DNA of 40,570 nucleotides from an uncultured Bacteroidota bacterium (GTDB lineage: Bacteria; Bacteroidota; Bacteroidia; Bacteroidales; FEN-979): positions 1 through 40,570 of the forward strand of contig CALCGJ010000058.1 of the NCBI GenBank assembly GCA_937900965.1. Reading direction: 5' to 3'. Position 1 is the first letter of the stretch, and every line of letters starts with the position of its first letter. A model generated the notes under the pieces. The model was not told the origin of the DNA and made no database searches. It worked only from the letters and a program-made list of their open reading frames with translations. This document shows positions 8,516-25,589 of this stretch, piece by piece. The position numbers were made by a program, and so were the translations under genes.

Positions 8516-8571
8516 GATGGTTAATGATAGTGTAAAGGAGGGTAATCAATAATGTGCAGTTTATCCTGGAT

Positions 8572-9267: not shown

Positions 9268-9277
9268 ATCTATAGGT

Positions 9278-9994
9278 TTATGTCATAAGTTTTTTCGTGT
9301 TTTCTGCGAAATAATTCAGATCCAGAATCCTAATCTCTTTCCCTTGGATCTTTATGTGATTTTGCTCGTCCAGATCTCCTAATATTCTGACTACGGTTTC
9401 ATAAGTTGTTGCAGATAGTGCAGCCAGATCTTTTCTTGACAAAGAGAAATTTAAACGGGTCTCGTCTTCCTTTTTCATCCCAAAGGTCTCAATAATTTCA
9501 TTTATTGAATAAATTAGCTTGCCTGATGCATGCATTTTTTGAAAACTCTTGTACCTGATCTCTGCCTTTTTTAATTTCGCAGTCAATAAATTAATGATAA
9601 AGTGTATCATCTCTTTATTTGATTCGAGGACAATCCTGAAAATATCAGCCGGGAAAAAAGTAATTTCACTTTCCGAAAGCGATTCCGCGGTTACTGAATA
9701 AACATTCTCAGGTTCGCCCAATGACCGGCATTCCAAAATATTTTCTTTCGTAATCAAATCGACAATCCATTCTGATTTGCCGTCAAAATCGTACACTTTG
9801 ATAAACCCTGAGAAAACAGTAAAAACTCCTTTTATCTGGTCTCCTTTTGAAAATATTTTTTCTCCCGGTTCAACCTGGTAAGTAATCTTATGTTCCGAAA
9901 GAAAGTGCCTCCACTCATCAGAACAGTATTTGTTGATAAAGCAGTTCAATCGAATGCAATTACTGCATTTTCTCTCTGATTCAATGATGTTCAT
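9278..9994 (-). CDS. Crp/FNR family transcriptional regulator with an N-terminal cysteine cluster
   Basis: This 238-residue regulator has an N-terminal segment with four cysteines (C10, C13, C18, C24 in KCSNCIRLNCF...KYC), then a cyclic-nucleotide-binding-like beta-roll (about 28-130), a dimerisation helix and a C-terminal winged helix with LSRKDLAALSATTYETVVRI as recognition region. The cysteine spacing could hold an Fe-S cluster, as in FNR, but is not proof. The recognition helix lacks the classical E-x-x-S-R of E. coli FNR, which agrees with the local palindrome being ATGAC-N4-GTCAT and not TTGAT-N4-ATCAA. Divergence from the act-nar operon and co-transcription with ric make it the likely anoxia/NO regulator of this cluster. 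Confidence 0.9.
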   Translation of the reverse strand: MNIIESERKCSNCIRLNCFINKYCSDEWRHFLSEHKITYQVEPGEKIFSKGDQIKGVFTVFSGFIKVYDFDGKSEWIVDLITKENILECRSLGEPENVYSVTAESLSESEITFFPADIFRIVLESNKEMIHFIINLLTAKLKKAEIRYKSFQKMHASGKLIYSINEIIETFGMKKEDETRLNFSLSRKDLAALSATTYETVVRILGDLDEQNHIKIQGKEIRILDLNYFAENTKKLMT

Positions 9995-10082
9995 ACCCCC
10001 AGCTGATATTACTCATTTCCAAAATATCATGGTACAAATAACAGATATTTTTATACAACAACCAAACAAATTCATCTGTATT

Positions 10083-10100
10083 ATATGACGAATGTCATAT
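10083..10100. promoter_or_regulatory. FNR-type operator palindrome 1
   Basis: ATATGAC-GAAT-GTCATAT has perfect 7-base arms around a 4-base centre, the arm-and-spacer geometry of FNR/CRP-family sites. It lies 89 bases upstream of the regulator ATG (9994) and about 146 bases before palindrome 2. It could autoregulate the FNR-ric transcript or act as a distal site for the act-nar promoter. It sits within the 311-base gene-free region 9995-10305, which otherwise is AT-rich with no ORF. Confidence 0.65.
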
Positions 10101-10228
10101 TCTTGGAGTATTATTATTGTCCAAACTGATACAATTTTAATTATTGCTCATAAAGGAAGCATGTACAGATTCATGCAATGTAAGTAATTTAGACTGAAAA
10201 TAAATTCAGGATTTTTTAAATATTTATA

Positions 10229-10242
10229 ATGACGAACGTCAT
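10229..10242. promoter_or_regulatory. FNR-type operator palindrome 2, upstream of actA
   Basis: ATGAC-GAAC-GTCAT repeats the core of palindrome 1. Its centre (10235.5) is 31 bases before the centre of the TATCTTTG box at 10263-10270, and roughly 38-42 bases before the predicted transcript start. That is the spacing used by CRP/FNR proteins at class II promoters. The site covers the place where a -33 element would be, and no TTTG is present there, which is consistent with an activator-dependent promoter. Confidence 0.7.
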
Positions 10243-10262
10243 ATTCATCGAAAATTTACTCT

Positions 10263-10270
10263 TATCTTTG
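10263..10270 (+). promoter_or_regulatory. -7 box of the act-nar operon
   Basis: TATCTTTG is an exact TAnnTTTG match, 36 bases before the actA ATG, predicting a leader of about 30 bases. No competing promoter was recognised further downstream in the operon, so this may drive all eleven genes to narI. Confidence 0.6.
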
Positions 10271-10305
10271 GTTCCGAATAAAGATGGTCGCGAAAAATCA
10301 TACCT

Positions 10306-11445
10306 ATGAGATTTTTTATTCCACTGATAACATTTCTTTTATTTACTTTAATAATTTGTGAAGCACAAAACAAAACAGCTTTTTCAGGCGACACGAATGT
10401 GCAAAAAGCCCTGCCTTCGATGCGTTCTGATGTTGAACTTTTTGAGTCGTGTGCCAGATGCCATACAATTGGCAAAGGAAAACTAATCGGTCCCGACCTG
10501 GCAGGAGTCAAAGCAAGGCATTCTGAGGAGTGGCTAATCAATTTCATTCAGACTTCAGACTCTGTAATTGCCTCCGGCGATACATCAGCTACCAGGCTCT
10601 ATGAAGCGTATAACAAACTCCCGATGCCTCGGCACGACTATTCCAGGGATGAGGTCAAATCGCTGATTCATTTCATTGCATTAGAGACAAGAAAATCAGA
10701 AGCGGACCCCAACTTCCTGGATAATGATTTCAGTTTTGCACATCATTCAAACACCTGGCCTTTTATCATTGGAGTTTTGTTTCTTCTTTTTGGAATTTTG
10801 GATTTGGCATTTATTAAATTGATGAAGTTCAAATTTGTTAATGTCATTCTGATTCTAGCCGGCTTGACCATCTCAGGAAAAGCCGTTACAGAAGAGGCGA
10901 TTTATTTGGGCAGAAGCCAGGGATTTGAACCGGATCAGCCGATCAAATTCTCTCATAGAATTCATGCAGGAGAGAATAAAATAGACTGTCAGTATTGCCA
11001 CACTGGTGCCGGTGAAAGCCGGTATGCGCTTGTGCCGTCGGCAGACGTGTGCCTGAATTGTCATAACGTTATCCGCAACGGACCAAATACGGGGGAAGAG
11101 GAGATCAATAAGATTCACGAAGCCTTTGAACAAGGGATACCAATTAAATGGGCCAGGGTATACAGTATGCCCGACCATGTTTTTTTCAGCCATTCGCAAC
11201 ACGTCAATGCCGGAAAAGTGGAGTGCAAGGATTGCCACGGCGAAGTGGAGAAGATGGGCAGGATACAACAGGTAAATGATTTGAGCATGGGCTGGTGCAT
11301 CGACTGCCACCGGACACGTAAAGTGCAGTTTGACAATGGGTACTACCTATCCTACAAACAACACGAAGATCTGTTATCCGGAAAAATAAAAGAGGTTACA
11401 GTAGAGGAGGTTGGCGGGCTTAACTGTCAGAAATGCCATTATTAA
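10306..11445 (+). CDS. actA: Alternative complex III subunit ActA, hexaheme with fused monoheme cytochrome domain
   Basis: This 379-residue exported multiheme cytochrome starts with a signal peptide (about 1-20). A monoheme cytochrome c domain follows, with CARCH at 49-53 and a probable methionine ligand in LPMPRH. A hydrophobic region of one or two helices (about 151-192) leads to five further heme motifs: CQYCH 228, CLNCH 249, CKDCH 307, CIDCH 331 and CQKCH 374. The protein ends one residue after the last motif. ActA of known ACIII complexes is described as pentaheme; the extra N-terminal domain is a fusion that resembles the diheme cytochrome at 18261-19100. Its role is to take electrons from the ActB iron-sulfur chain and pass them to a periplasmic acceptor. 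It is the first gene of the operon. Confidence 0.9.
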   Translation: MRFFIPLITFLLFTLIICEAQNKTAFSGDTNVQKALPSMRSDVELFESCARCHTIGKGKLIGPDLAGVKARHSEEWLINFIQTSDSVIASGDTSATRLYEAYNKLPMPRHDYSRDEVKSLIHFIALETRKSEADPNFLDNDFSFAHHSNTWPFIIGVLFLLFGILDLAFIKLMKFKFVNVILILAGLTISGKAVTEEAIYLGRSQGFEPDQPIKFSHRIHAGENKIDCQYCHTGAGESRYALVPSADVCLNCHNVIRNGPNTGEEEINKIHEAFEQGIPIKWARVYSMPDHVFFSHSQHVNAGKVECKDCHGEVEKMGRIQQVNDLSMGWCIDCHRTRKVQFDNGYYLSYKQHEDLLSGKIKEVTVEEVGGLNCQKCHY

Positions 11446-11485
11446 TCTGACGCAAAACAAACCCACGAAAAACTTTGTGCATAGC

Positions 11486-14400
11486 ATGAAAAAATATTGG
11501 AGAAGCATAGAGGAGCTGGAAGAGGATTCAACCATTGAAAAGTCGCCGGAACGGGAATTCCCAACAGAGGTGACTGCCGGGGGAAATATGGATCTGCCTG
11601 GGACGACCACCACCCGACGCGATTTTTTGAAAATGCTTGGTTTTGGAATTGGATTTGTAACATTTGCTGCAAGCTGCGAAAATCCGATCAACAAAGCCAT
11701 CCCCTACCTGATCAAACCTGAAACAATCATCCCCGGGAATGCGAATTATTATGCTTCGACCTTTTTCGACGGAAATGACTACTGCAGCATCGTTGTGAAA
11801 ACACGCGAAGGACATCCGATTAAAATTGAAGGCAATGAGTTGTGCTCAATTACATCAGGCGGCACAAACGCAAGGGTTCAGGCATCAGTTTTAAGTTTAT
11901 ATGACAGCTTCCGGATTAAGAATCCCCTTAAAAGCAGACTGGAATCAACCTGGGAAGAGGTTGATGGAGATATTGTTGCAAAACTTGATGAAATTGCGGG
12001 AAAAGGAGAAAAGATCGTCATTCTCTCCTCTTCTGTTATCAGCCCTTCAACCCAAAGCATTTTTACCGATTTTATAAGAAAATACCCCACAACAGAGGTA
12101 ATTTATTATGACTCCATCTCTGCATCAGGAATGATTGAGGCAAATCAACAAAACTTCGGACAGCCCTTCCTGCCGTCATACCGTTTTGATAAAGCCAGGT
12201 TAATCGTTAGTTTCGGGGCCGATTTTCTTGGCAATTGGCTTTCGCCGGTTGAATATACAAAGCAATACTCAAAGACCAGGAAAATAAGCAAAGCAAATCC
12301 GGTCATGTCAAGGCATATTCAGTTTGAATCAACACTTACCCTTACCGGAAGCAACGCTGATTACAGAATACCGGTCAATCCATCGCAGGAGGCCGGAACG
12401 ATCCTGAACCTATACAACGGGATAGCTCAGAAAGCGGGAAAAGCAACAATAAACGCTCCCGCTTCCACGATCAATATGGACTCTCTTGTCGATGAGCTAT
12501 GGGCATCAAAGGGCAGGTCGCTTGTTGTTTCCGGTTCGAACGATGTCAATATCCAGCTTGTCGTAAACGATCTTAACCACATGCTTGGCAACTACGGTAA
12601 GACCCTGGATATTAACAAACCGGCATATACAAAACAGGGTATCGACAGTCAAATGGAGCACCTTGTTGAGCGCATGGGAAAAGGCGAAGTTGGAGCTTTA
12701 TTGATGTATAACGTTAACCCAGCATATGACTATCAAAATTCAGGGGCTTTTTCGGAGTCACTCAGTAAGACTCAGCTCTCAATTTCATTTTCAGAAACGT
12801 TGAATGAAACGGCAAAACTTGCCACCTATGTTTGTCCCGATTGCCATTACCTGGAATCGTGGAATGACTCTCAACCGAAAAAAGGGGTTTACAGCCTGAC
12901 ACAACCGGTTATCAACAAACTTTTTAATACCAGGCAGGCACAGGAGAGTCTGATGATCTGGTCGGCAACCGGAAACAGGGCTGACACTGGTGAACCAACA
13001 TCTGAGACTGTTGCCAAAGAGGATGCTTATTACACCTATATTAAAGATTACTGGAGATCGGTTCTTTTTCCAAAGCAGGAGAAATATATCCTGTTCTCCG
13101 AGTTCTGGGACAATGCACTCCAGGCCGGAGTGTTTACAGTTGATCAGGCAGTAGATACGTTTAACCTGAACAATTCTCAGGATGTCGCCGGTTATACCCG
13201 TGTAAGCCTGGACGCTTGCGTATCACAACTTGAACCTCCGGAAGCCGGAGAGAGAGATATAGAATTCACATTGTACGAAAGTATCGGTTTGGGAGACGGA
13301 AGACAAGCCAATAATCCCTGGCTGCAGGAGCTTCCCGACCCGGTTTCAAAGGTATGCTGGGACAACTACCTCGCCGTTTCAAAAACATTTGCAGATAAAA
13401 ACAGGTTGAAATTAGGAGATATTGTAATCGTGAACGACCTGTTTGAATTACCCGTACTCATTCAGGCAGGCCAGGCGGACAATACGGTTTCAATCGCCCT
13501 GGGATATGGCAGGAGCAGTGCAGGGAAGGTAGCAGACGGTCTGGGACAAAATGCCTTCAGACTGGTTCAAACCAAGGGAACCAGGCTGTATAGCGGTCAC
13601 AATATTAACCTCGTACCAACCGGCGTCAATTATATCTTCGCCCTCACTCAGACCCATCACACACTGCATGGGCGCAACCACGTTCACACAGCTCTGCTCA
13701 AAGATTACAAAGAAAATCCATCTTCAGGAAACGAAGCACACCTTCTGGCTGAGGAGAAAAAACAATCCCTCTACGGTGAAAGGGAATTTAAAGGGCATCA
13801 CTGGGCCCTGGCGATTGATCTGAACCTTTGCACCGGATGCAGCGCCTGCGTGATTGCCTGCCAGGCCGAGAACAATGTGGCTGTGATCGGTCGCGATGAA
13901 GTAAGAAAAAAACGTATCATGCACTGGATCAGGATTGACAGGTACTATGCCGAAAAGGCGGAAGACCCGGAAGTTTTTTTTCAGCCCGTCATGTGTCAGC
14001 AATGTGACAATGCCCCATGCGAAAATGTTTGCCCCGTGGAGGCCACACAGAACAGCAAAGAGGGGCTGAACGACATGATTTACAACAGATGTATCGGTAC
14101 ACGCTACTGCATGAACAACTGCCCCTATCGTGTGCGCAGATTCAACTGGTTCGAATATGCAAACAACGATAAGTTTGATTACAACATGAATAGCACTCTC
14201 GGAAAAATGGTGCTGAACCCGGATGTGGTGGTCAGATCCCGAGGCGTAGCGGAAAAGTGTTCATTTTGCATTCAACGGATCCAGGAGAAAAAACTGGGTG
14301 CAAAACTGGAGAACAGAGAACTTAAAGATGGAGAGATCAAACCGGCATGCCTTCAGTCATGCCCTGCGAATGCAATCGTATTCGGAGATCGGAACATGCA

Positions 14401-14530
14401 GGATAGCGAAATTTCCAAAGCCTTTGCAAATGAACGAAATTACTTTTTACTGGAGGAGGTCAACACACAACCTTCCGTTGGCTACCTGACAAAAATCAGG
14501 AATACAGAAAGCAACAAACATGAAACATAA
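11486..14530 (+). CDS. actB: Alternative complex III subunit ActB, molybdopterin-enzyme-like plus iron-sulfur protein
   Basis: This protein of about 1014 residues is a fusion of a molybdopterin oxidoreductase-like domain with a C-terminal four-cluster ferredoxin domain. Near the N terminus lies a twin-arginine motif TTTRRDFLKMLGFG (R44-R45) followed by a hydrophobic stretch and a lipobox-like FAASC (C64), so export and lipid anchoring are likely; lipid anchors have been reported for ACIII subunits. The ferredoxin part carries CTGCSACVIACQ, CQQCDNAPCENVCP, CIGTRYCMNNCP and CSFCIQRI...CLQSCP. In known ACIII the large domain holds no molybdenum cofactor. I chose the ATG at 11486, 40 bases after actA, because the upstream in-frame TTG at 11411 lies inside actA and would only add a non-conserved leader. 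Confidence 0.93.
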   Translation: MKKYWRSIEELEEDSTIEKSPEREFPTEVTAGGNMDLPGTTTTRRDFLKMLGFGIGFVTFAASCENPINKAIPYLIKPETIIPGNANYYASTFFDGNDYCSIVVKTREGHPIKIEGNELCSITSGGTNARVQASVLSLYDSFRIKNPLKSRLESTWEEVDGDIVAKLDEIAGKGEKIVILSSSVISPSTQSIFTDFIRKYPTTEVIYYDSISASGMIEANQQNFGQPFLPSYRFDKARLIVSFGADFLGNWLSPVEYTKQYSKTRKISKANPVMSRHIQFESTLTLTGSNADYRIPVNPSQEAGTILNLYNGIAQKAGKATINAPASTINMDSLVDELWASKGRSLVVSGSNDVNIQLVVNDLNHMLGNYGKTLDINKPAYTKQGIDSQMEHLVERMGKGEVGALLMYNVNPAYDYQNSGAFSESLSKTQLSISFSETLNETAKLATYVCPDCHYLESWNDSQPKKGVYSLTQPVINKLFNTRQAQESLMIWSATGNRADTGEPTSETVAKEDAYYTYIKDYWRSVLFPKQEKYILFSEFWDNALQAGVFTVDQAVDTFNLNNSQDVAGYTRVSLDACVSQLEPPEAGERDIEFTLYESIGLGDGRQANNPWLQELPDPVSKVCWDNYLAVSKTFADKNRLKLGDIVIVNDLFELPVLIQAGQADNTVSIALGYGRSSAGKVADGLGQNAFRLVQTKGTRLYSGHNINLVPTGVNYIFALTQTHHTLHGRNHVHTALLKDYKENPSSGNEAHLLAEEKKQSLYGEREFKGHHWALAIDLNLCTGCSACVIACQAENNVAVIGRDEVRKKRIMHWIRIDRYYAEKAEDPEVFFQPVMCQQCDNAPCENVCPVEATQNSKEGLNDMIYNRCIGTRYCMNNCPYRVRRFNWFEYANNDKFDYNMNSTLGKMVLNPDVVVRSRGVAEKCSFCIQRIQEKKLGAKLENRELKDGEIKPACLQSCPANAIVFGDRNMQDSEISKAFANERNYFLLEEVNTQPSVGYLTKIRNTESNKHET

Positions 14531-14566
14531 TACGGTTTAATTATTAAGGATATTTTAGTGTAATCC

Positions 14567-15937
14567 ATGTACAATACAAAAGTAAGGGGAGTACTTGTTG
14601 AAGGCAATAAATCGTATGCCGATATTACCAGGGACATTATTGAACCCATCGAAAGTAAAGTCCCGGATTGGTGGAAATATGCTTTTATCATCAGCATTGG
14701 CGCTTTGCTGTTTGGCGTTTGGGCTTCTTATATAACCATTTCTGAAGGCATTGGCACCTGGGGATTGAACAATTCAGTGGCCTGGGGTTGGGGGATTATC
14801 AATTTTGTATGGTGGATTGGTATCGGGCACGCAGGAACGGCATTTTCAATCTTCCTGCTGATCGTTCGTCAAAAATGGAGGACCTCTATCAACAGGGCTG
14901 CTGAAGCAATGACGGTATTCGCTGTTCTTTGCGCCGGCCTGTTTCCTCTTATTCACATGGGACGCATCTGGATGGCATTTTATATCATGCCCTATCCGAA
15001 TACCAGAGGTCCGATTTGGGTTAACTTTAACTCACCCCTTTTCTGGGATGTAGTCGCTATCAGTACATACCTGATGGCCTCCGCGGTATTCTGGTATGTG
15101 GGGATGATCCCTGATTTCGCAACCATCCGTGATAAGACTGCCTCGAAAATACGAAAAGCGATCTATGGTTTTCTGAGTTTCGGATGGGTGGGCTCTGCAC
15201 GCGGCTGGCTTCGTTTTGAAGCGCTGGCTATGATTCTCGGTGGACTTACAGCCCCGCTGGTCATCTCCGTTCATTCTATTGTAGCTATGGACTTTGCTAC
15301 CTCGGTCATGCCAGGCTGGCATACAACGGTATTCCCACCCTACTTTGTAATTGGCGCCATATTTTCAGGTTTCAGTATGGTGCTTACACTGATGATTATC
15401 ATCCGGACAGTTTATAAGTATCAGTCGTACGTTACCGACAGCCACATAAACGCCATTGCCAAAATTCTTGTTTTCATCAGTTTGATTATGGGAACAGCCT
15501 ACAGTACCGAAATCTTTATTGCCTGGTATTCAGGCAGTGAGTATGAATACTATACCTTTTTCAACAACCGTATTTCCGGCGATTATACCATCGCTTTCTA
15601 CGGAATGATCATCTGTAACGCGATCATTCCTCAGCTTTTCTGGTTTAAGAAGATCAGAAAAAATATAATCCTTGTATTTATCATCTCCCTGTTTGTCAAT
15701 CTTGGCATGTGGTTTGAAAGATATGTAATCGTAGTTACTTCACTGTCAAAAGATTATCTGCCGTCTAACTGGTCAACCTATACTCCCACTGTTGTAGAGA
15801 TAGGTGTTTATGTTGGCACACTCGGTCTGTTTATTTGCGGGGTACTTCTGTTTCTCAAATTCATCCCCATGATTGCCATCCACGAAGTAAAAGGAATTTT
15901 AAAACCCACAAGCAATGGTCGGTACCATAAAAAATAA
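14567..15937 (+). CDS. actC: Alternative complex III subunit ActC, NrfD-like quinol-binding membrane protein
   Basis: This 456-residue NrfD/PsrC-type integral membrane protein has about ten transmembrane helices. Its N terminus is soluble (about 1-45), then WWKYAFIISIGALLFGVW starts the membrane part. The conserved histidine-rich positions include WIGIGHAGTAFS, FPLIHMGRIW and ISVHSIVAMDFATSVMPGWH. In ACIII, ActC forms the menaquinol site facing the ActB iron-sulfur clusters and is proposed to take part in proton translocation. It follows actB by 36 bases. The start of actD overlaps its end by 23 bases, indicating translational coupling. Confidence 0.93.
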   Translation: MYNTKVRGVLVEGNKSYADITRDIIEPIESKVPDWWKYAFIISIGALLFGVWASYITISEGIGTWGLNNSVAWGWGIINFVWWIGIGHAGTAFSIFLLIVRQKWRTSINRAAEAMTVFAVLCAGLFPLIHMGRIWMAFYIMPYPNTRGPIWVNFNSPLFWDVVAISTYLMASAVFWYVGMIPDFATIRDKTASKIRKAIYGFLSFGWVGSARGWLRFEALAMILGGLTAPLVISVHSIVAMDFATSVMPGWHTTVFPPYFVIGAIFSGFSMVLTLMIIIRTVYKYQSYVTDSHINAIAKILVFISLIMGTAYSTEIFIAWYSGSEYEYYTFFNNRISGDYTIAFYGMIICNAIIPQLFWFKKIRKNIILVFIISLFVNLGMWFERYVIVVTSLSKDYLPSNWSTYTPTVVEIGVYVGTLGLFICGVLLFLKFIPMIAIHEVKGILKPTSNGRYHKK

Positions 15938-16457
15938 TAACATTTTCGGGGTTTTTGATGATGAGGATGTATTCCTGTCAGCCATGAGAAGTATGGAAGA
16001 GACAGGTATCAGGATAAAGAATGTTTTTACCCCTTACCCGATACCGGAAGTGTTCAGAATAATGGGACTGAAAACCAGAATGCCTTACGCTGCATTTATC
16101 TACGCTACAATAGGGGTCATCCTCACCTACGCTTTCTTGTATTGGACCTCGGTAATTGATTACCCGGTTATCATTGGTGGAAAACCTACTAACACGCTTT
16201 CATTCGTGATCATCCTGTTTGTAATGACGATAAATATCGGGATCGTGATGTCGCTGGTCACTTTTTTTATCATACAAAAGCTTGGCCCGGGAAAATCTGC
16301 CCGAATAGTACACAAAGGGATCACCGACGATAAATATGTAATCGTTATCGAAAAAACCAAAGAGATGTCAAAGGAAGATTCGCAACGAATTAATTATACC
16401 TTGTTTGAATACGGAGCAATAGAGGTGGGAGAAAAAGAACATGTTGAAAATATTTGA
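15915..16457 (+). CDS. actD: Alternative complex III subunit ActD (DUF3341)
   Basis: This 180-residue protein has a soluble N-terminal domain beginning IFGVFDDEDVFLSAMRSMEE and the conserved FTPYPIPEV segment. Two transmembrane helices follow (about 56-76 and 93-115), then a short basic and charged C terminus. This is the DUF3341 architecture of ActD, a structural subunit that sits against ActC and ActF with its soluble domain in the cytoplasm. The ATG at 15915 lies inside actC; a start this far upstream is needed to keep the whole conserved N-terminal domain. Its own end overlaps the actE start by 17 bases. Confidence 0.9.
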   Translation: MVGTIKNNNIFGVFDDEDVFLSAMRSMEETGIRIKNVFTPYPIPEVFRIMGLKTRMPYAAFIYATIGVILTYAFLYWTSVIDYPVIIGGKPTNTLSFVIILFVMTINIGIVMSLVTFFIIQKLGPGKSARIVHKGITDDKYVIVIEKTKEMSKEDSQRINYTLFEYGAIEVGEKEHVENI

Positions 16458-17049
16458 TACCATTATCTTTATGCAAAATAAGCCAGGACATAGGATCACT
16501 ATTTTTACCCTCACTATCCTACTGATTTTTTCTGGTTGCAGCAGGGAGAACAGAAATCATCCGGGCTATAGGTATCTCAATGACATGGCTCCTTCGGTAC
16601 CCTACGACTATTATTCGGAAAATCCGAATTTTGCTGATGGAGCAACAGCCCAGGCCCCTGTTCCGGGTACGATTCCAAGAGGAGCCATCCCGTATCCCTA
16701 TCCCCGAACTGATGCCGGGCAAAAACAGGCTGGCGCTGAACTCAAGAATCCGCTGATTGCATCGAAAGATGACCTTGAAACAGCCAAAAAGATTTACGAT
16801 GTCACTTGCATCATGTGCCACGGTGAATCAGGAAAAGGCGATGGCTTCCTGGTCTCTTCCGGAAAATTTACAACAGATGTCACTTCACTGGTAGGTGAAT
16901 TTGTACAGAATAAACCTGACGGAGAGATCTACCATGTGATCACAATGGGTTCTTTATCTGGTTTCATGGGATCACACAGCGCGCAAATTAAACCTGACGA
17001 CAGATGGAAGATAGTGGCCTACATTAAAAATAAACTGCAGACCAATTAA
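16441..17049 (+). CDS. actE: Alternative complex III subunit ActE, monoheme cytochrome c lipoprotein
   Basis: This 202-residue exported monoheme cytochrome c has a hydrophobic signal ending in the lipobox LIFSGC (C33), so the mature protein is probably lipid-anchored on the outer face of the inner membrane. The only heme motif is CIMCHGESGKGDG near residue 123, with a likely methionine ligand in ITMGSLSGFMGSH. A proline-rich linker precedes the cytochrome fold. In ACIII, ActE sits next to ActA and offers a possible exit for electrons. The ATG at 16441 is preceded by GGTGGGAG; an internal ATG at 16471 would still keep a complete lipoprotein signal. Confidence 0.9.
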   Translation: MLKIFDTIIFMQNKPGHRITIFTLTILLIFSGCSRENRNHPGYRYLNDMAPSVPYDYYSENPNFADGATAQAPVPGTIPRGAIPYPYPRTDAGQKQAGAELKNPLIASKDDLETAKKIYDVTCIMCHGESGKGDGFLVSSGKFTTDVTSLVGEFVQNKPDGEIYHVITMGSLSGFMGSHSAQIKPDDRWKIVAYIKNKLQTN

Positions 17050-17080: not shown

Positions 17081-18274
17081 ATGACCATTGACAAAGCATA
17101 TACCGTTCCCCCCGGATTAAGAGTTCTTTCATTGCTCCTGATCGTTACCGGTATAGCCACGTTCACAGCTGGCATTTTGATTGACCCGCAGAGAACCTGG
17201 GCTAACTACCTGATAGATAGCTACTTTTTTATCTCTCTTGCCATTGGTGCAATGTTTTTTCTGGCCATACAATACATCACACAATCCGGCTGGTCTTCTA
17301 TGTTTAACAGAGTTCCTGAAGCAATGGGAAGCTACCTTCCCTATGCAGGGGTACTGATGCTGATTTTTATCATCTTTGGCTCACACTCTATCTATCACTG
17401 GACACATCATTCTGCGGTAGAAAGCGATGTACTTCTCCAGCATAAATCGCCCTATCTGAATCTGCCGTTTTTCATTATCCGCTTCGTTGTCATTTTCGGC
17501 GCATGGATCTCACTGATGGTCCTTTTGCGCAGATTATCCCTGAAACAGGATATCGCAGGCGGTTTGACCAATTTTCACAAAAGCGAATATTACTCGAAAG
17601 TATTTATCTTTGTTCTGGCGCTCACCTTCAGTCTTGGAACCTTTGACTGGATCATGTCAATCGATGCGCACTGGTTTAGTACCCTGTTTGCGATTAAAAA
17701 CTTTATTTCAGCATTTCTCCACGGTTCTGCCGTTGTTGCTTTAATAGTAATTCTCCTTTATCAGCAGGGTTATTTCCCAAAACTTAATAAAGCGCATCTT
17801 CATGATTTTTCAAAATACATGTTCATCATAGGGATTATCTGGGCCTATATGTGGTTTACACAGTATTTACTGATCTGGTACGCGAACATGCCCGAAGAGA
17901 CCGTCTATTATCAAACAAGGATCAGCAGCGAGTGGAGGGTGCTTTTTTATGGTAATGTGGTGCTTAACTGGCTTTTCCCATTTCTTTTCCTGATGCTGAA
18001 CAAAATAGCAGATAACAAGTATGCTCTTCTCTTTACAGCGGCCGTTTTGATGGTTGGAATGTGGGTTGATTTATATGTGCAAATTATGCCGGGATCAACA
18101 ATGTCGGACACATCCCCGATGGGTTTAAACTCCATCGGATTAGTTGAAATAGGCACATTCCTTGGATTTTTGGGAGTATTTACCTTTGCTGTATCGAGAT
18201 CGCTCAGCAAGGCAAATCTGATTCCCGTGAAGCATCCTTACCTTGAAGAGAGTTTGATGCATGAATTACATTAA
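17081..18274 (+). CDS. actF: Alternative complex III subunit ActF, second NrfD-like membrane protein
   Basis: This 397-residue integral membrane protein has about ten predicted helices and is distantly related to ActC. Characteristic segments are SIYHWTHHSAVESDVLLQHK, FDWIMSIDAHWFSTLFA and MWFTQYLLIWYANMPEET. ActF is the partner of ActC in the membrane arm; it lacks a clear quinol site in known structures and is proposed to conduct protons. The gene lies 31 bases after actE and its end overlaps the next cytochrome gene by 14 bases, so the cytochrome is translationally tied to the ACIII genes. Confidence 0.92.
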   Translation: MTIDKAYTVPPGLRVLSLLLIVTGIATFTAGILIDPQRTWANYLIDSYFFISLAIGAMFFLAIQYITQSGWSSMFNRVPEAMGSYLPYAGVLMLIFIIFGSHSIYHWTHHSAVESDVLLQHKSPYLNLPFFIIRFVVIFGAWISLMVLLRRLSLKQDIAGGLTNFHKSEYYSKVFIFVLALTFSLGTFDWIMSIDAHWFSTLFAIKNFISAFLHGSAVVALIVILLYQQGYFPKLNKAHLHDFSKYMFIIGIIWAYMWFTQYLLIWYANMPEETVYYQTRISSEWRVLFYGNVVLNWLFPFLFLMLNKIADNKYALLFTAAVLMVGMWVDLYVQIMPGSTMSDTSPMGLNSIGLVEIGTFLGFLGVFTFAVSRSLSKANLIPVKHPYLEESLMHELH

Positions 18275-19100
18275 AATACGCATGGATATGAAATATTTAA
18301 CTCCGCTTATCGCAACTTTTTTGTTTCTGACAGTGGCAGTTAGCGCTCAGGATGGCGCTGCGCTTTTCAATAAACATTGCAAAGCCTGCCATACGATCGG
18401 GGGAGGTAATAAAGTCGGACCGGATCTGGCAGGGATTACTTCAAAAAAGGATTTTGACTGGCTTGTTAAATTCGTAAAATCATCAAAAGACTTAATTGCA
18501 AGCGGCGATCCCGATGCAGTTGCCATTTTTGAAGAATTCAAGAAAACACCCATGCCATCTCACTCAAATTCAGTTGCGGAGATCAAGGCAATGTTGGATT
18601 ATATAGCAAGCGGAGGCGTTTCTCCCGGTGGCCCGGAGATCGAAAAAAAAGAGATGTCAATGGTATTTGAACCCGATGCCGAAAAGGGAAGAAAACTGTT
18701 TACCGGAGAGCTGGCTTTTGCCAACGGAGGGCCAGGTTGTATCGCCTGCCACAGCGTCAGGCGTAACGATGTATCGTTCGGCGGACTATTGGCAATGGAT
18801 TTGTCTGTCTCCTATAAGGAAAACATCGTTGAGACAATGGAAACAAGCATGCCGGCCATGATAAATTCCTACGGCAACTCGCCTCTTGCTGTGGATGAAC
18901 GGGCGAATCTTGACCTGTTCCTGAAAATAACAAAGGAAGATCAGTTATATCAGTCGCCCGGACAATTCAACGGTATGTTTTTCCTTTTTGGATTTATTGT
19001 ATTCGTATTCATTCTGATCATTATTCATATTTTCTGGAGAACCAACAAAAAAATTGGTGTTTTAGATAATATTTTCAAACGTCAGATACGAACTCAATAA
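18261..19100 (+). CDS. Membrane-anchored diheme cytochrome c between ACIII and nitrate reductase
   Basis: This 279-residue cytochrome has a signal peptide (about 10-30) and a first class I heme domain with CKACH at 40-44 and a probable ligand in TPMPSH. A second heme domain has CIACH at 160-164 and SMPAMINSYG, and a single C-terminal helix (238-258) is followed by a basic tail; the heme domains therefore face the periplasm. The first domain aligns with the extra N-terminal domain of this operon's ActA at about 34 of 79 positions by eye. Its place directly before narG resembles that of the diheme cytochrome NarC in Thermus, but its anchor is C-terminal and I infer analogy, not orthology. Starts at 18282 or 18288 would give a shorter n-region. 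Confidence 0.9.
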   Translation: MNYIKIRMDMKYLTPLIATFLFLTVAVSAQDGAALFNKHCKACHTIGGGNKVGPDLAGITSKKDFDWLVKFVKSSKDLIASGDPDAVAIFEEFKKTPMPSHSNSVAEIKAMLDYIASGGVSPGGPEIEKKEMSMVFEPDAEKGRKLFTGELAFANGGPGCIACHSVRRNDVSFGGLLAMDLSVSYKENIVETMETSMPAMINSYGNSPLAVDERANLDLFLKITKEDQLYQSPGQFNGMFFLFGFIVFVFILIIIHIFWRTNKKIGVLDNIFKRQIRTQ

Positions 19101-19140: not shown

Positions 19141-22100
19141 ATGAGTTGGATACAGGATTTAATCAGACCCGGTTTCAGAGAATGGGAAGAGTTTTACCGC
19201 AACAGAAATCAACACGACAAAGTGGTACGAAGCACCCATGGTGTTAACTGCACAGGAGGCTGTAGTTGGAATATTCATGTGAAAGATGGGATCGTTGTTT
19301 GGGAAACACAGGCTATCGACTATCCCGAACTGGAAAGCTCACTTCCTCCATACGAACCAAGAGGATGCCAGCGGGGAATTTCTTTTTCCTGGTACCTCTA
19401 CAGCCCAATCCGTGTAAAGTATCCACTGATAAGAGGCGCTCTTATTGATTTGTTTAAAGCGGAAAAAGAGATAACAGGCGATGCGGTAAAAGCATGGGAA
19501 AATATCCAGAACAACCCAGAGAAGAGAAAAAGATATCAAAAAGCACGAGGAAAAGGCGGATTCAGGCGCATATCCTGGGATGATGCCCTGGAGCTGATAG
19601 CCGCTTCAAATATCTATACGGTGAAGCGTTATGGTCCCGACAGAATCACAGGATTTTCTCCGATACCGGCAATGTCGATGCTAAGCTATGCAGCAGGATC
19701 GAGATTCCTACAGCTAATGGGAGGCGTCAATCTGAGCTTTTATGACTGGTACTGCGATCTTCCCAATGCATTCCCTGAAATCTGGGGAGAACAAACTGAT
19801 GTAGCCGAAAGCGCTGACTGGTACAATTCAAAGTACATTGTTGCTATGGGGGCCAACCTTGGAATGACAAGAACTCCCGACGTCCACTTCTTCTCCGAAG
19901 CCAGACACAACGGCACGAAAACCGTCGTGATGTCGCCTGATTTCAATATGGTCGCCAAATATTCAGACCAGTGGATTCCAATACATGCAGGGCAGGACGG
20001 AGCCTACTGGATGGCGGTTACCCATGTGATCCTGAAGGAGTTCCACGTAGATAAAAAGACTCCCTATTTTATTGATTATACAAAAAGATATACTGACAGT
20101 CCCTACCTGGTTGAATTGGTTGAGGAAGGGGGAAAGTTTACCCCTGCCCATCTGTTGAGGGCCAATCAAATTGAAAAATACAGGAACATAGAAAACGGCG
20201 AGTGGAAATTCCTGAACTTCGACTCAGAGACAGGAAACCTTATATGTCCTGGCGGTAGCTCCGGACATCGATGGGACAGCAAACCCGGTAACTGGAACAT
20301 GAAATTTGAAGATGCCGAGGATGGAACAACCTATGATCCCATTCTATCGTTGATCGACATCAGAGATGAGGTTTTTCAGGTTGAGTTTACTGAATTTGGT
20401 CTTGGTGTGAAAGCAGAACGAGGAGTCCCTGTCAGATATGTGGAGACCACCAGAGGAAGAGTTCCCGTTACTACTGTTTACGATCTGATCATGGGCCAGT
20501 ATGGAATAGACCGCGGACTTGCAGGCAATTATCCTGCATCATACGATGATAAGAATGCCGCCTATACACCTGCATGGCAAGAGATTTTTACAGGAATTGG
20601 CAAGGATACGATCCTGCAGTTTGCACGCGAATGGGCAAGAACAGCTGAAGTCACCAATGGAAAATGCATGATTATCATTGGTGCAGGCGTCAATCACTGG
20701 TATCACAATAACTTGATTTACAGAGCCGGAATCATGGCGCTGATGCTTACTGGAAGCATCGGAGTAAATGGCGGAGGCATGAACCATTATGTCGGACAAG
20801 AGAAACTTGCCCCCATGGACTCCTGGTCTGCAATTATGTCGGGCAAAGACTGGCAGTCGGCTTTCAGGCTCCAGCAGGCTCCGATCTGGCACTATATACA
20901 TTCAAACCAATGGCGTTACGATGGAAACCAGGCTGACTACAATACCGTTCCGAAAAACGAACTCTCGACCCAGCATACAGCCGACCTGATCGTTAAGTCT
21001 GTCAAAAATGGATGGATGCCATTTTTTCCTCAGTACACCAGAAGCAACTTCGACATCGTAAAAGATGCAGAAGAGGCAGGAGCCACCAATGATGATGAAA
21101 TAAAAAAATACGTTGTAGATAAGCTGCAAAGCAAAGAGCTTGTATATGCTGTTGAAGAGCCTGATCATGAAATGAGCTTTCCCCGTATATGGTACATCTG
21201 GCGGGGAAACGCGATCAACTCAAGTGCAAAGGGACATGAATATTTCCTGAAGCATTACCTCGGGACACACAACAATGTGATTTCGGATGAAGTGGCAAAC
21301 GAGTTTGTCAAAGAGATTGAATGTACAGAAGATAATCCGGAGGGAAAGATGGACCTGATTGTTGATTTGAACTTCCGGATGGATACTTCGGCTCTGTACT
21401 CGGACATCGTACTGCCTGCCGCATCATGGTATGAAAAAGCAGATTTGAACAGTACCGACATGCATTCTTTCATTCATCCGCTCTCCTCTGCAATCAACCC
21501 TGTGTGGGAAGCAAAAAGTGACTGGCTGATTTTCAGAGAGATTGCCCGTGTAACCAGTGAACTGGCTCAGGAACACCTCCCTTCTCCCATGAAAGATATC
21601 GTGAATGTACCTATCATGCATGATACAGTGGGAGAGATCTCTCAACCGGGGATCAAAGACTGGAGCAAAGGAGAGTGTGACCCGATACCGGGCAAGACAA
21701 TGCACAATATCTCGATCGTTGAACGGGATTACACAAAAATTTATGAGAAATTCACCCTCCTTGGCCGGAATATTAAAAATGGTCTGGGAGCTCACGGAAA
21801 TTCATATCAATGTGGTGATTACTATGATATGATGCTGGATAATCCGGATCATATACAGAGCATGGATGGTGAGATTTACCCGTCGATAAAGGATGATGTT
21901 GAAGCAGTTGAAGCCGTATTGCACCTGTCTTCACTGACAAACGGTGTCCTGAGCGTTCGGGCATACGAAAATGCTGAGAAAAAGACCGGACTAATACTCA
22001 AAGACCTGAGTGAAGGAAGTAAAGATGTGAAACTTTCATACAAAGATCTCCTGGCACAGCCTCGGCGGTATAATAATTCACCATTATGGTCGGGTTTAAT

Positions 22101-22761
22101 GAATAACGGGAGAGCCTATTCTGCATATACTTACAATATAGAGCGCCTGGTGCCATGGAGAACACTTACAGGCCGGCAGCACTTTTATCTCGATCATGAA
22201 GGGTATATAAAATTCGGCGAACATTTGCCAACTTATAAACCCTCGCCGAAACCTGAAGTTTATGGAGAACTGAGGAAAACTGTAGTTGAAGGCAATGCCA
22301 GGGTATTGAATGTGCTTACTCCTCATGGGAAATGGCATATTCATTCAACATACGGCGACACACTACGTATGCTGACCTTGTCGAGAGGTACCGAACCATG
22401 CTGGCTAAGCGAAGCAGATGCGGAGGAGTTGGGTATCCAGGACAATGATTGGGTTGAAGTACACAACGACAATGGCGTTTACTGCACACGGGCCTGTGTG
22501 AGCGCACGTATTCCCAAAGGAGTATGCATCGTATACCATTCACCCGAGCGCACATACCAGCTTGCAAAATCACAGGTTCGGGGTAACCGTAGAGGTGGAG
22601 GACACAACAGCCTTACCCGCATTCACCTGAAGCCAAATCTGCTGGTAGGCGGTTACGGCCAGTTTACCTACCATTTCAATTACTGGGGCCCCGTTGGGGT
22701 AAACAGAGACACCCACGTGGTGGTCCAAAAAATGAGCAAAGTTGTTCTTGATGAACATTAA
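19141..22761 (+). CDS. narG: Respiratory nitrate reductase catalytic alpha subunit NarG
   Basis: This 1206-residue molybdenum bis-MGD enzyme reduces nitrate to nitrite. It matches E. coli NarG along its length. The FS0 cluster ligands are H33, C37, C41 and C76 ([11 protein letters not shown] and EPRGCQRG). The molybdenum ligand equivalent to E. coli Asp222 is D206 in [10 protein letters not shown]. Further conserved segments include [27 protein letters not shown] and [15 protein letters not shown]. There is no twin-arginine signal; the N terminus goes straight from a short amphipathic stretch to the cluster motif, so the enzyme is of the cytoplasm-facing type. It is the first of narGHJI, 40 bases after the diheme cytochrome gene. 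No promoter was recognised in the gap. Confidence 0.97.
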
Positions 22762-22794: not shown

Positions 22795-24285
22795 ATGGAC
22801 GTAAGATCGCAAATATCAATGGTATTCCATTTAGACAAATGCATTGGATGCCATACCTGTTCGATTGCGTGTAAGAATATCTGGACTGACAGAAAAGGGG
22901 CTGAATATATGTGGTGGAATAATGTGGAAACAAAGCCCGGAACCGGATATCCGACGAAGTGGGAAGATCAGAAAATTTATAAAGGAGGATGGGAAAAAAA
23001 AGGCAACTCAGTTGACTTGATCGGCGCAGGCAAGACAAAGGGAATGAGCAGGATCTTCCACAACCCGAACCTGCCCGTTATGAATAACTATTATGAGCCA
23101 TGGACCTATAAATACTCCTATCTTTTTGATGCGCCTGAAGGTGATGACCAGCCTGTAGCCAGAACAATATCTCTTGTAACCGGCGAGCCGATTGACGTAA
23201 AAGCCGGGCCGAACTGGGATGATGACCTGGGTGGTTCCATTGACTATGCCCGGCAGGATGTAAACATGGAGACACTCACCGAAGCAGAAAAACAGGCGAT
23301 GTTCCAGCTGGAAAGGATGGTTATGTTTTATCTCCCAAGGATATGTAACCATTGTCTCAATCCATCATGTGTGGCATCATGCCCGTCAGGAGCCATCTAC
23401 AAACGCGGGGAAGACGGTATCGTACTCATCAACCAGAAACGATGCCGTGCATGGAGAATGTGTATAACAGCCTGTCCTTACAAAAAAAGCTACTACAACT
23501 GGAATACCGGCAAATCAGAGAAATGCATCCTCTGCTTCCCGAGGGTTGAAACCGGACAGGCTCCTGCGTGCATGCACACGTGTGTGGGTAGAATCCGATA
23601 CCTGGGTGTCATGCTCTATGATGCCGACAGGATTAAAGAAATTGCTTCATGCGATACCGGTGATTTGATTGAAAGACAGTTGGAAATTTATCTGGATCCT
23701 TTTGATCCGGTAATCATTGCTGCAGCAAAAAAGAATGGCATCGCCGATTCAACTATTGATGCTGCTCAGAAATCTCCGGTGTACAAATTCGTAAAAAAAT
23801 GGGGGATAGCTCTGCCCCTTCATCCAGAATTCCGGACCCTTCCAAATTTGTTCTATGTTCCGCCATTATTGCCCACCATGGCAAGCACTTCAGGTGGATT
23901 GTACGACAGTACTACGGATTCCCTCTGGGGGAAAGCTGAAGATACACGACTTCCCCTCAGATATCTGGCAAGTCTGTTTACTGCCGGCGATACAGAAAAG
24001 ATCAAGGAGGTGCTCCGAAAACTTCAAGCCGTCAGATTACACCGCCGGGCAGTAACGGTGGGTGATCTGGATAAAAAAGAGACTGAAGAGGCGATGAAGC
24101 GCTCGAACCTTGATAGTGAAATGGCCGATGCTATTTTCAGGCTCACTTCACTTGCCAAATTTGAACAACGGTTTGTTATCCCTGACGCGCATAGGGAAGA
24201 GGCAATTGAGATGATTGAAAATACCGGAGATGTGAAAGGAGATGCCGGTTTTGGATTTTTAAGTAAACCGAACAGAGGGTTGTAA
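22795..24285 (+). CDS. narH: Nitrate reductase iron-sulfur beta subunit NarH
   Basis: This 496-residue electron-transfer subunit carries four ferredoxin-type cysteine groups: CIGCHTCSIACKN, CNHCLNPSCVASCP, CRAWRMCITACP and CILCFPRVETG...CMHTCVGR. The tryptophan replacing one cysteine in CRAWRMC is typical of NarH and marks the [3Fe-4S] cluster. It passes electrons from the NarI hemes to the FS0 cluster of NarG. Length and motif order match E. coli NarH (512 residues). The gene starts 33 bases after narG. Confidence 0.97.
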   Translation: MDVRSQISMVFHLDKCIGCHTCSIACKNIWTDRKGAEYMWWNNVETKPGTGYPTKWEDQKIYKGGWEKKGNSVDLIGAGKTKGMSRIFHNPNLPVMNNYYEPWTYKYSYLFDAPEGDDQPVARTISLVTGEPIDVKAGPNWDDDLGGSIDYARQDVNMETLTEAEKQAMFQLERMVMFYLPRICNHCLNPSCVASCPSGAIYKRGEDGIVLINQKRCRAWRMCITACPYKKSYYNWNTGKSEKCILCFPRVETGQAPACMHTCVGRIRYLGVMLYDADRIKEIASCDTGDLIERQLEIYLDPFDPVIIAAAKKNGIADSTIDAAQKSPVYKFVKKWGIALPLHPEFRTLPNLFYVPPLLPTMASTSGGLYDSTTDSLWGKAEDTRLPLRYLASLFTAGDTEKIKEVLRKLQAVRLHRRAVTVGDLDKKETEEAMKRSNLDSEMADAIFRLTSLAKFEQRFVIPDAHREEAIEMIENTGDVKGDAGFGFLSKPNRGL

Positions 24286-24297
24286 AGCACACAAACA

Positions 24298-24873
24298 ATG
24301 GAGCATTATTCAGCATTGGCATGCCTTTTTACCTATCCTGGCAAAGGATTGGCAAAAGATGTTGCAAATGTGAAAGAGATTTTACTAAAAGATTACCCTG
24401 AAAAACTGGGAAACATCAATGCTTTTTTATCTTTTGTCGAAGAGACTCCTCTTGAAACACAATCCGAGTATTATATTAAAACATTTGATGTACAAGCGTT
24501 ATGTTATCTTGATATCGGATATATCCTATTCGGGGAAGATTACAAGAGAGGTGAGTTTCTTGTGAATTTACGAAGTGAGCACAAAAAAGCTGCAAACAAC
24601 TGTGGATCTGAACTTGCAGACCATTTGCCAAACATGCTGAGGTTGTTGCCGAAAATTGCGGACCGGGGTTTTGCCGGGGAGCTTGGTTATTGTATCATGA
24701 TCCCGGCCCTGAAAGAGATGCTGAAGAATTTCAAAGTGGAAGACAATATTTACAGGGGGAATCTTGAAATACTGCTTAATGTATTGGAAGTCGATTTTAA
24801 AGGACTTGATTTTCCGCAATTCCGCATAAATAACAAAGACAAAACAGATTTCCTAAAACATCTTAAAAAATGA
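24298..24873 (+). CDS. narJ: Nitrate reductase assembly chaperone NarJ
   Basis: This 191-residue all-helical cytoplasmic chaperone of the NarJ/TorD family has the typical N-terminal LACLFTYPG and the central DIGYILFGEDYKRGEFLVNL followed by ELADHLPNMLRLL. NarJ binds apo-NarG, allows insertion of the molybdenum cofactor and FS0 cluster, and is not part of the finished enzyme. It lies 12 bases after narH and overlaps narI by 4 bases (ATGA), the usual coupling in nar operons. Confidence 0.95.
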   Translation: MEHYSALACLFTYPGKGLAKDVANVKEILLKDYPEKLGNINAFLSFVEETPLETQSEYYIKTFDVQALCYLDIGYILFGEDYKRGEFLVNLRSEHKKAANNCGSELADHLPNMLRLLPKIADRGFAGELGYCIMIPALKEMLKNFKVEDNIYRGNLEILLNVLEVDFKGLDFPQFRINNKDKTDFLKHLKK

Positions 24874-25589
24874 GTGATTTTTTCTTTATCGGACTACCCT
24901 ACGGATCCATAGTTATCATGGTAATCGGTACAATATACAGGTATCGCTCTTCTCAATTCGGGTACTCGTCCCTCTCCTCACAGTTTCTCGAGAGCAATAA
25001 CCTGTACAAAGGAATACGTCCGTTTCATTGGGGCATTATATTTTTATTCTTCGGGCACCTTGTTGCTTTCCTTTTCCCCCGGAGTGTTTTGATTTGGAAT
25101 GGAGATATATTACGACTTCTCATCATTGAAATTACAGCTTTTGGATTCGGACTCCTCACACTCTGGGGACTGATCATACTCATCATCCGAAGAGTTCAGA
25201 CAAAAAGAATCCACGCGGTAACATCCAGGATGGATGTAGTGGTATATATCATCTTGCTGGTTCAGGTAATTACAGGCCTGTTCTCTGCTTATCTTTACCG
25301 CTGGGGAACCTCCTGGTTTGCATCCGTGATGTCGCCTTACCTTAAATCCCTCTTCATATTTTCGCCCGACACAGCTGCACTTCAGGCTATGCCTTTATGG
25401 GTACAGATTCACGTTGTTTCGGCATTTACCATGCTTGCACTCATTCCCTTTACCAGGTTTGTTCATATCCTGGTTTATCCTCTGCTGTATTTCTTCAGAA
25501 GCTATCAGCGTGTAGTCTGGAACTGGGATAAGAATAAAATCCGGAATTCCTCCAAAATGAATGTCGGAAAACCTCCTGAAAACAACTAA
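24870..25589 (+). CDS. narI: Nitrate reductase cytochrome b gamma subunit NarI
   Basis: This 239-residue integral membrane protein with five helices binds two b hemes and oxidises quinol at the periplasmic side. The four heme ligands are visible as H53 and H63 (FHWGIIFLFFGHL) and H181 and H199 (QIHVVSA and FVHILVYP). Spacings of 10 and 18 are identical to those of E. coli NarI (56/66 and 187/205). The ATG overlaps the narJ stop. This is the last gene of the act-nar operon; its stop lies one base from the stop of the convergent methyltransferase gene, leaving no room for a separate terminator. Confidence 0.96.
   Translation: MSDFFFIGLPYGSIVIMVIGTIYRYRSSQFGYSSLSSQFLESNNLYKGIRPFHWGIIFLFFGHLVAFLFPRSVLIWNGDILRLLIIEITAFGFGLLTLWGLIILIIRRVQTKRIHAVTSRMDVVVYIILLVQVITGLFSAYLYRWGTSWFASVMSPYLKSLFIFSPDTAALQAMPLWVQIHVVSAFTMLALIPFTRFVHILVYPLLYFFRSYQRVVWNWDKNKIRNSSKMNVGKPPENN

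Follow-up and report, generated by a model that had tools for sequence, protein, structure and literature searches.

What does a small cytochrome c gene do between the genes of a complex III and those of a nitrate reductase? The question is raised by a stretch of 40,570 nucleotides from an uncultured Bacteroidota bacterium (contig CALCGJ010000058.1; the whole stretch is called the window below), in which actABCDEF, encoding an alternative complex III (ACIII), is followed by the cytochrome gene and then by narGHJI. In textbook NarGHI, electrons are taken straight from quinol. Sequence comparisons identify the gene very probably as narC, whose product is a cytochrome c and the fourth subunit of respiratory nitrate reductases of the NarCGHI type. 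Its distribution ties it to one clade of NarG, whose loci repeatedly carry complex-III-type genes, and NarC could serve as an inlet for electrons from complex III.

The narC gene (18261..19100, + strand) encodes a 279-amino-acid (aa) diheme cytochrome c with a Sec-type signal, two haem-c domains and one C-terminal transmembrane (TM) helix. The CxxCH motifs lie at aa 40-44 (CKACH, 18378..18392) and aa 160-164 (CIACH, 18738..18752). Haem domain 1 (aa 29-117, 18345..18611) is of the ActA/SCO-cytochrome type according to profile and structure matches and is detected by Pfam as Cytochrom_C (PF00034, 29-117, E 6.7e-15). Haem domain 2 (aa 137-229, 18669..18947) is the NarC-defining one; it matches QcrC chains in profile comparison and aligns with Thermus NarC. 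The membrane helix (aa 236-264, 18966..19052), followed by a short tail, is seen in the hydropathy as a single strong C-terminal hydrophobic segment (aa 240-258, mean 3.11). An AlphaFold2 model made from a 34-row alignment (mean pLDDT 85.5, pTM 0.60) has helical haem domains at about 32-116 and 140-227, the membrane helix at 236-264 and a short terminal helix. C40, C43, H44, C160, C163, H164 and M200 are invariant across the 34 aligned NarCs and M98 is kept in at least 90% of them; Met98 (18552-18554) and Met200 (18858-18860) are the probable axial haem ligands. An earlier note on this DNA had described a C-terminally anchored diheme cytochrome c between the ACIII and nar genes, on which the CxxCH pairs, the hydropathy and the model agree. 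The gap of 40 bases that it gave between narC and narG (start 19141) is exact, whichever narC start codon is used. The overlap with actF is 14 bases (actF ends at 18274) with the ATG at 18261 and disappears with the alternative ATGs at codons 8 and 10, which are downstream of the actF end; in the orthologue of genome G085 the first start lies 25 bases past actF.

A genome scan with a NarG alignment confirmed at least 590 narG loci, and the best 80 of these, which are not a random sample, were compared. In 51 clade loci NarG is 53-78% identical to that of the window and in 29 outside loci 46-49%; the labels 'NarC+' and 'NarC-' in our trees and NarI counts refer to whether NarG is at least 53% identical or less, not to the presence of NarC. 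A match to the NarC profile was detected directly 5' of narG on the same strand in 47 of the 51 clade loci and in none of the 29 outside loci, and the four clade loci without a match have just 1-236 bases of upstream DNA. In a NarG tree of 91 rows, the 61 rows above the identity cut form one side of a branch with a FastTree support of 100, and the window NarG falls in the clade that contains Thermus. In 395 genomes of the window's phylum, with up to six candidates scored per genome, all 25 matches of the NarC profile that reach domain 2 (E <= 1e-20; the window is among them) stand directly before narG. The other matches listed cover domain 1 only by query range, and two of the five examined are ActA. 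Of the two nar operons that lie close together in a single stretch of genome G040, NarC accompanies only the operon whose NarG is window-like. Judging from these sequences, NarC is a marker of one NarG clade; therefore a review's statement that nar operons of mesophiles lack NarC (PMC7694296) does not hold. NarC was found under 18 phylum names, and some labels of metagenome-assembled genomes (MAGs) may be wrong or reflect transfer. Cultured carriers include Algoriphagus alkaliphilus and Geomonas paludis.

Most NarC loci (41 of 47) encode two or three haems in one open reading frame (ORF). One-haem ORFs were detected in L054, L057 (cut by the contig end), L071, L081, L087 and L090; in the last (L090:8674-9946), NarC is split, and two neighbouring ORFs before narG each encode one haem, the one matching domain 1 and the other domain 2. 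In L170, L171, L172 and L173 the NarC directly before narG is shorter (249-259 aa) and its domain 1 is divergent; NarG there is 56-59% identical to the window NarG over the part seen. L050 is the same genome as G103, and L048 is near-identical to G067. A contig-cut match in G005 was left out of the 12-genome set, and the second narG of G130 lacks upstream DNA in its stretch.

The NarGs of this clade also differ at their N-terminus. The ATG is mostly 32-42 residues before the HGVNC motif in the clade and mostly 47-55 residues outside (three NarGs without the motif were dropped), so that clade NarGs begin about 15-20 residues later. In the window NarG, which was not part of this comparison, the ATG of the ORF is 32 residues before the motif. 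The later start is in line with a remark in PMC10609526 that Thermus NarG has neither the N-terminal NarJ site nor the hairpin by which NarI is contacted.

In Thermus thermophilus narC is directly 5' of narG (narCGHJIKT), as in the window. When plasmid records were searched by tblastn, Thermus NarC made up the 13 top-ranked rows among the best 20 of 30 records (13 Thermus records, residues 30-226, 28.5-30% identity, E 1e-8 to 3e-8). For NarG, the window shares 58.6-59.3% identity with Thermus and at most 47.6% with the others (best 40 of 316 records). Thermus NarC (262 aa) has a signal peptide, two CxxCH motifs and one C-terminal TM at 226-244, and the two Thermus NarCs compared (JL-18 and NAR1) follow the same plan as the window NarC, anchor included. 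The proteins share the signal peptide, the C-terminal TM, the short tail, a homologous domain 2 and the NarG clade; they differ in domain 1, which is c6-like in Thermus and of ActA type in the window, and are about 29% identical. Unlike Thermus narC, the window narC is in one operon with ACIII. The comparable place before narG had been recognized in the earlier note, and the architecture, too, is that of Thermus NarC. Its "different anchor" is wrong because Thermus NarC has the same C-terminal anchor, and its "independently evolved" connector does not agree with the domain 2, C-terminal helix, place and NarG clade that are common to both; only domain 1 differs. The connector role itself is plausible because complex-III-type genes recur at loci of this NarG clade.

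Domain 1 is related to the N-terminal monohaem domain of ActA (10306..11445, + strand, six CxxCH). ActA of the window is 43% identical to NarC residues 33-117 (E 3.1e-20) and is the only further match to NarC at E <= 0.001 in the window's genome. Profile comparison of domain 1 gave the SCO1-fused cytochrome c 2l4d (E 6.5e-26) and the ACIII subunit ActA (6btm_A, E 2.7e-24), and VIA-align gave Z 12.9 to the R. marinus cytochrome c 3cp5 and 12.5 to 2l4d. ActA and the SCO1-fused cytochrome c lack, however, a domain 2 of the NarC kind and the C-terminal helix. The paralogous link to ActA that had been proposed thus concerns haem domain 1, whereas domain 2 and the helix resemble QcrC. We rejected the idea that domain 1 was recently copied from the window's ActA, since the NarC domains of relatives are nearer to window domain 1 (86% identity in G085 and 56% in G170, against 43% for ActA), although the NarC of G002 is almost tied with ActA in its nearness to window domain 1. 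In a domain-1 tree (96 columns, many forks unresolved), the window nests with the NarC domains 1 of relatives and most ActA domains are close to Bacteroidota NarC domains; the long branches of the G040 ActA and of L058 make their placement unsure. An oxidase-type (caa3) cytochrome, against which the earlier note had called for a phylogeny, was rejected as well: five CoxB (caa3) c-domains fall outside (support 90/52), and domain 1 does not group with any of these tested c-domains. Another, c6-like type of domain 1 occurs in Thermus and in two NarCs of Actinomycetota. A single clade of NarC domains 1 is rejected by the approximately unbiased (AU) test (p 0.009), with ActA/SCO-type domains falling among them and the Thermus type apart, and domain 1 may therefore have been exchanged, perhaps more than once.

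Domain 2 points to a different relative. The NarC profile matches QcrC chains 6hwh_M (E 3e-12, 103-239) and 7q21_C (E 1.2e-10, 104-264), and the match from domain 2 to the TM helix covers QcrC of the actinobacterial bcc complex at E 3e-12 to 5e-10. The curated QcrC model NF050122 matches 28 of 34 NarCs at E <= 1e-3, and the window NarC stays well under its cut-off (39.7 bits versus 200). With the whole NarC model, Foldseek listed QcrC 7e1w_O at E 0.94, which is not significant, and QcrC was absent among the best 50 VIA-align rows. Like NarC, QcrC (6hwh, 7q21) has two haem domains and a C-terminal TM, and it joins complex III to its acceptor; NarC, unlike QcrC, is tied to narG. The NarC profile also matches the Kuenenia diheme cytochrome Kustd1711 (PDB 7zs0-7zs2, E ~6e-14). 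We take Kustd1711 to be a member of the nitrite oxidoreductase (NXR) cluster and, if so, it may be a functional counterpart of NarC.

Complex-III-type genes recur around the clade, and the sequences hold two kinds of fusion. Both the window and G085 encode ACIII ahead of narC. In nine of the 51 clade loci ACIII follows narI, on the same strand (L061, L063, L064, L066, L069, L072, L088, L091 and L096; L088 counted from actA/actB at the contig end), with NarC seen in eight of the nine. Four clade loci have Rieske/cytochrome b genes near narG. In three of these NarI is fused to Rieske (PF02665 + PF00355) and followed by cytochrome b, checked with Pfam for L076 and L086. The count of four leaves out L078, with a partial cytochrome b on the opposite strand, and L084, with an opposite-strand match ~7 kb beyond narG. 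The fused proteins (L076:15672-16946, L086:15706-17019 and L095:15730-17139) carry a TM-anchored Rieske domain with intact CTHLGC...CPCH. At L083:6614-9936, in a Chloroflexi MAG, narC is preceded by genes for cytochrome b, for a C-terminal part of cytochrome b and for Rieske, and its product has three haems and carries an extra N-terminal TM and haem domain (the start codon is ambiguous); no COX1 match was found in this genome, whose completeness is not established. Among order-level relatives of the window, G170 and G002 encode an iron-sulfur (FeS)/NrfD/monohaem-cytochrome module that a single small ORF separates from the downstream narC, and G168 has parts of such a module on the two contigs bearing narC and narG; the starred branches of the NrfD-module tree (14 rows, three nar-linked) force two label changes. 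Near narG in the 29 outside loci, the search detected neither ACIII nor cytochrome b, Rieske or an NrfD module. NarC as ACIII's own cytochrome was rejected: in the DNA seen, most NarC loci show no ACIII, and NarC is absent from the ACIII operons of G103, G040, G145, G067, G124 and G119. The nar-ACIII order is already in print because PMC10732223 describes 13 cases in MAGs where a six-gene ACIII-like cluster comes after the nar genes, the order also seen in our nine loci. Going by the parts listed there, the cluster is ACIII; its authors proposed an NrfAH-like nitrite reductase or respiratory complex, and the section concerned names neither NarC nor NarI fusions.

NarI carries a signature of the clade. 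NarI rows came from 63 of the 80 loci (39 + 24) and from 12 others, giving 49 clade and 26 outside NarIs. R82 aligns with K86 of Escherichia coli NarI, to which we ascribe a quinol-binding role, and is kept in 41 of the 49 clade NarIs. It is lost in all three Rieske fusions and in two of the three NrfD-module genomes, a post hoc pattern resting on about two lineages; NarIs that have lost this residue (the fused ones and some NrfD-module lineages) may no longer oxidise quinol. E87 is present in 49 of 49 clade NarIs and W149 in all 47 ungapped ones, and neither occurs in the 26 outside NarIs. The E. coli NarI topology gives the side on which these two residues lie; read through the alignment, both are on the periplasmic side, where NarC should touch. 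Thermus NarC binds NarI in two-hybrid assays, according to the relevant parts of PMC7694296 and PMC10609526.

An inlet is the simplest account of this locus because a NarG-tied cytochrome with ActA-like and QcrC-like domains is recurrently joined to complex III. Menaquinol would be oxidised by ACIII, whose haems would pass electrons to NarC; from there they would reach the periplasm-side b haem of NarI and cross the membrane to NarH and to nitrate at NarG. Domain 2 and the C-terminal helix probably dock NarC on the periplasmic face of NarI, and the ActA-type domain 1 would face the electron donor. NarGHI would thus occupy the position that a caa3 oxidase usually has behind ACIII, with energy conservation possible at both steps. 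We put the probability of the whole route, from menaquinol through complex III, NarC and NarI to nitrate, at about 0.5. The docking on NarI, the direction of the electrons, the haem ligands and the energy yield are what we infer from the sequence evidence, and NarI of the window organism may also oxidise quinol directly. For Nar1 of Streptomyces coelicolor with bcc-aa3, a nitrate reductase fed by the diheme cytochrome of complex III has likewise been proposed by Falke and colleagues; electron transfer from QcrC to NarI haem bD was judged feasible, with more protons moved (PMC7931247). The partner there is QcrC/bcc rather than NarC and ACIII, and the abstract and Discussion of that paper do not mention NarC.

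If the inlet exists, nitrate respiration through complex III and a dedicated cytochrome would give a larger energy yield, as proposed for Streptomyces spores, and nar-ACIII clusters, among them a set that has been read as a possible nitrite reductase, would be annotated differently. A broader proposal, to which we give somewhat less than an even chance, is that NarCGHI forms a wide class of nitrate reductases fed partly or wholly by cytochrome c, in which each lineage joined the NarC inlet to the quinol:cytochrome c oxidoreductase at its disposal (ACIII, FeS/NrfD/cytochrome modules, or Rieske/cytochrome b fused to NarI), making nitrate reduction dependent on complex III with a higher proton yield and with Nar in place of the terminal oxidase. 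The tie of NarC to a NarG clade and the repeated joining to complex III make complex III-dependent nitrate respiration testable. Searches of one open-access library, mostly of its listings, gave no report of NarC outside Thermus, of NarI-Rieske fusions, of the clade-wide tie or of this reading of nar-ACIII clusters.

Several observations weigh against the inlet. R82 is kept in the window NarI and in all 11 ACIII-linked NarIs, and it is lost also in three other NarIs. Taxon confounds the clade contrast, as the outside loci come from Bacillota (20) and Pseudomonadota (9). In the DNA seen, which is often cut short, 38 of the 51 clade loci have no counted complex III gene, and the FeS/NrfD module occurs in none of the 51. 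ACIII upstream of narC is rare, with actF in the 1.5-kb flank of none of 24 other NarC loci, and at L063 the contig begins 18 bases before narG, too short to show NarC. Independent origins of the ACIII-Nar linkage are suggested by opposite gene orders and by at least seven label changes on the NarG tree, where absences are partly contig ends; we do not claim them because the ActC tree lacks non-Nar controls from other phyla and a single origin is not rejected (AU p 0.136). Five of the cases in PMC10732223 have oxygen reductase genes after the ACIII-like cluster. Finally, the passages on NarC in PMC7694296 report that Thermus NarC is needed for NarG maturation and for growth with nitrite or nitric oxide (NO), requirements that would fit an assembly or an outlet role too.

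As an outlet, NarC would export some of the electrons of menaquinol oxidised by NarI to periplasmic acceptors and replace complex III when nitrate is scarce. We consider this unlikely for the window, although NarI there retains R82 of the quinol site and Thermus PRQ16, in which complex III is repressed, cannot grow with nitrite or NO without NarC (same passages of PMC7694296). Replacing complex III seems pointless with ACIII in the same operon, and the NarI-Rieske fusions bring complex III to Nar instead. The genome of the window (G000, completeness 95.85%) gave no match to NirK, NirS or NosZ; the NosZ model PF18764 matched none of 14 control genomes but did match G067. No second COX1-family gene was found in G000, and therefore it has no NorB candidate and an outlet of the Thermus type would be without a denitrification acceptor. 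NrfA is present, as is cytochrome bd, but NrfA is usually fed by quinol through NrfH. The only true ACIII of G000 is the one at nar; the single COX1-family oxidase of this genome, of caa3 type, sits behind an FeS/NrfD/cytochrome module and not behind ACIII. G170, G002 and G168 have one such module at the oxidase and another at nar, and ACIII is near an oxidase in G040 and G103.

Mainly structural work is another reading that we doubt: NarC would mature and attach NarGH with its haems off the main route, and ACIII would just be co-regulated with nar under anaerobic conditions. The shorter N-terminus of clade NarGs (32-42 versus 47-55 residues) would suit such a role, as would the finding that Thermus narC and narI mutants lack mature membrane-bound NarG and that NarC binds NarI (parts of PMC7694296 and PMC10609526 on these mutants). 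The CxxCH motifs and Met200 are nevertheless invariant in 34 NarCs, domain 1 changes type yet keeps its haem motif, the distal haem is reported to be important when cells grow with nitrite or NO (PMC7694296, in the part cited above), and the fusions with complex III parts would be left unexplained. Very unlikely, in our estimation, is a nitrite oxidoreductase running in reverse, in which NarI and NarC would carry electrons out to a cytochrome oxidase. Here one can point to the match of Kustd1711 and to the likening of the Thermus cluster, in the same part of PMC7694296, to a Nitrobacter hamburgensis cluster with a NarC homologue. However, the presence of ACIII, major facilitator superfamily (MFS) transporters and NrfA agrees with nitrate respiration and ammonification, and the closest characterised NarG, that of Thermus, is a nitrate reductase.

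All neighbouring genes of the two complexes are on the + strand. NarG (19141..22761; TIGR01580, 1472 bits versus a cut-off of 1084) belongs to the clade that goes with NarC, and NarH (22795..24285) is above the cut-off of TIGR01660. NarJ (24298..24873) is under the curated cut-off of TIGR00684 (E 2.9e-12) and was assigned with the help of its operon place. NarI (24870..25589; PF02665, E 2.4e-60; TIGR00351), the diheme b anchor, has the clade signature R82, E87 and W149. The ACIII genes are, besides actA, actB (11411..14530), with a homologue in the G085 ACIII operon; actC (14567..15937), of NrfD type (PF03916, E 2.5e-21); actD (15915..16457; PF11821, E 1.2e-36); actE (16441..17049), with one CxxCH, assigned by PF13442, PF00034 and place; and actF (17081..18274), which has no Pfam match at 1e-3 and was assigned by operon place and by a homologue weakly similar to ActC. 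A further FeS/NrfD-type module of this genome, with 7- and 5-haem cytochromes and a small membrane protein, was seen in L129 (G000:C132, ~7556-15512); a similar cluster occurs in G085 (L131) and related modules in G145 (L142) and G067 (L145).

Upstream in the window, two MFS-type transporters (5422-6927 and 6938-8515, + strand) cluster with the annotated MFS transporter of the Thermus nar operon and, by this similarity, are probably nitrate/nitrite carriers. Two genes at 8572-9994 are divergent from actA, one presumably of the iron-sulfur repair (ScdA/RIC) type and one Crp-like. Their homologues recur in several NarC loci, which suggests anaerobic or NO-linked control.

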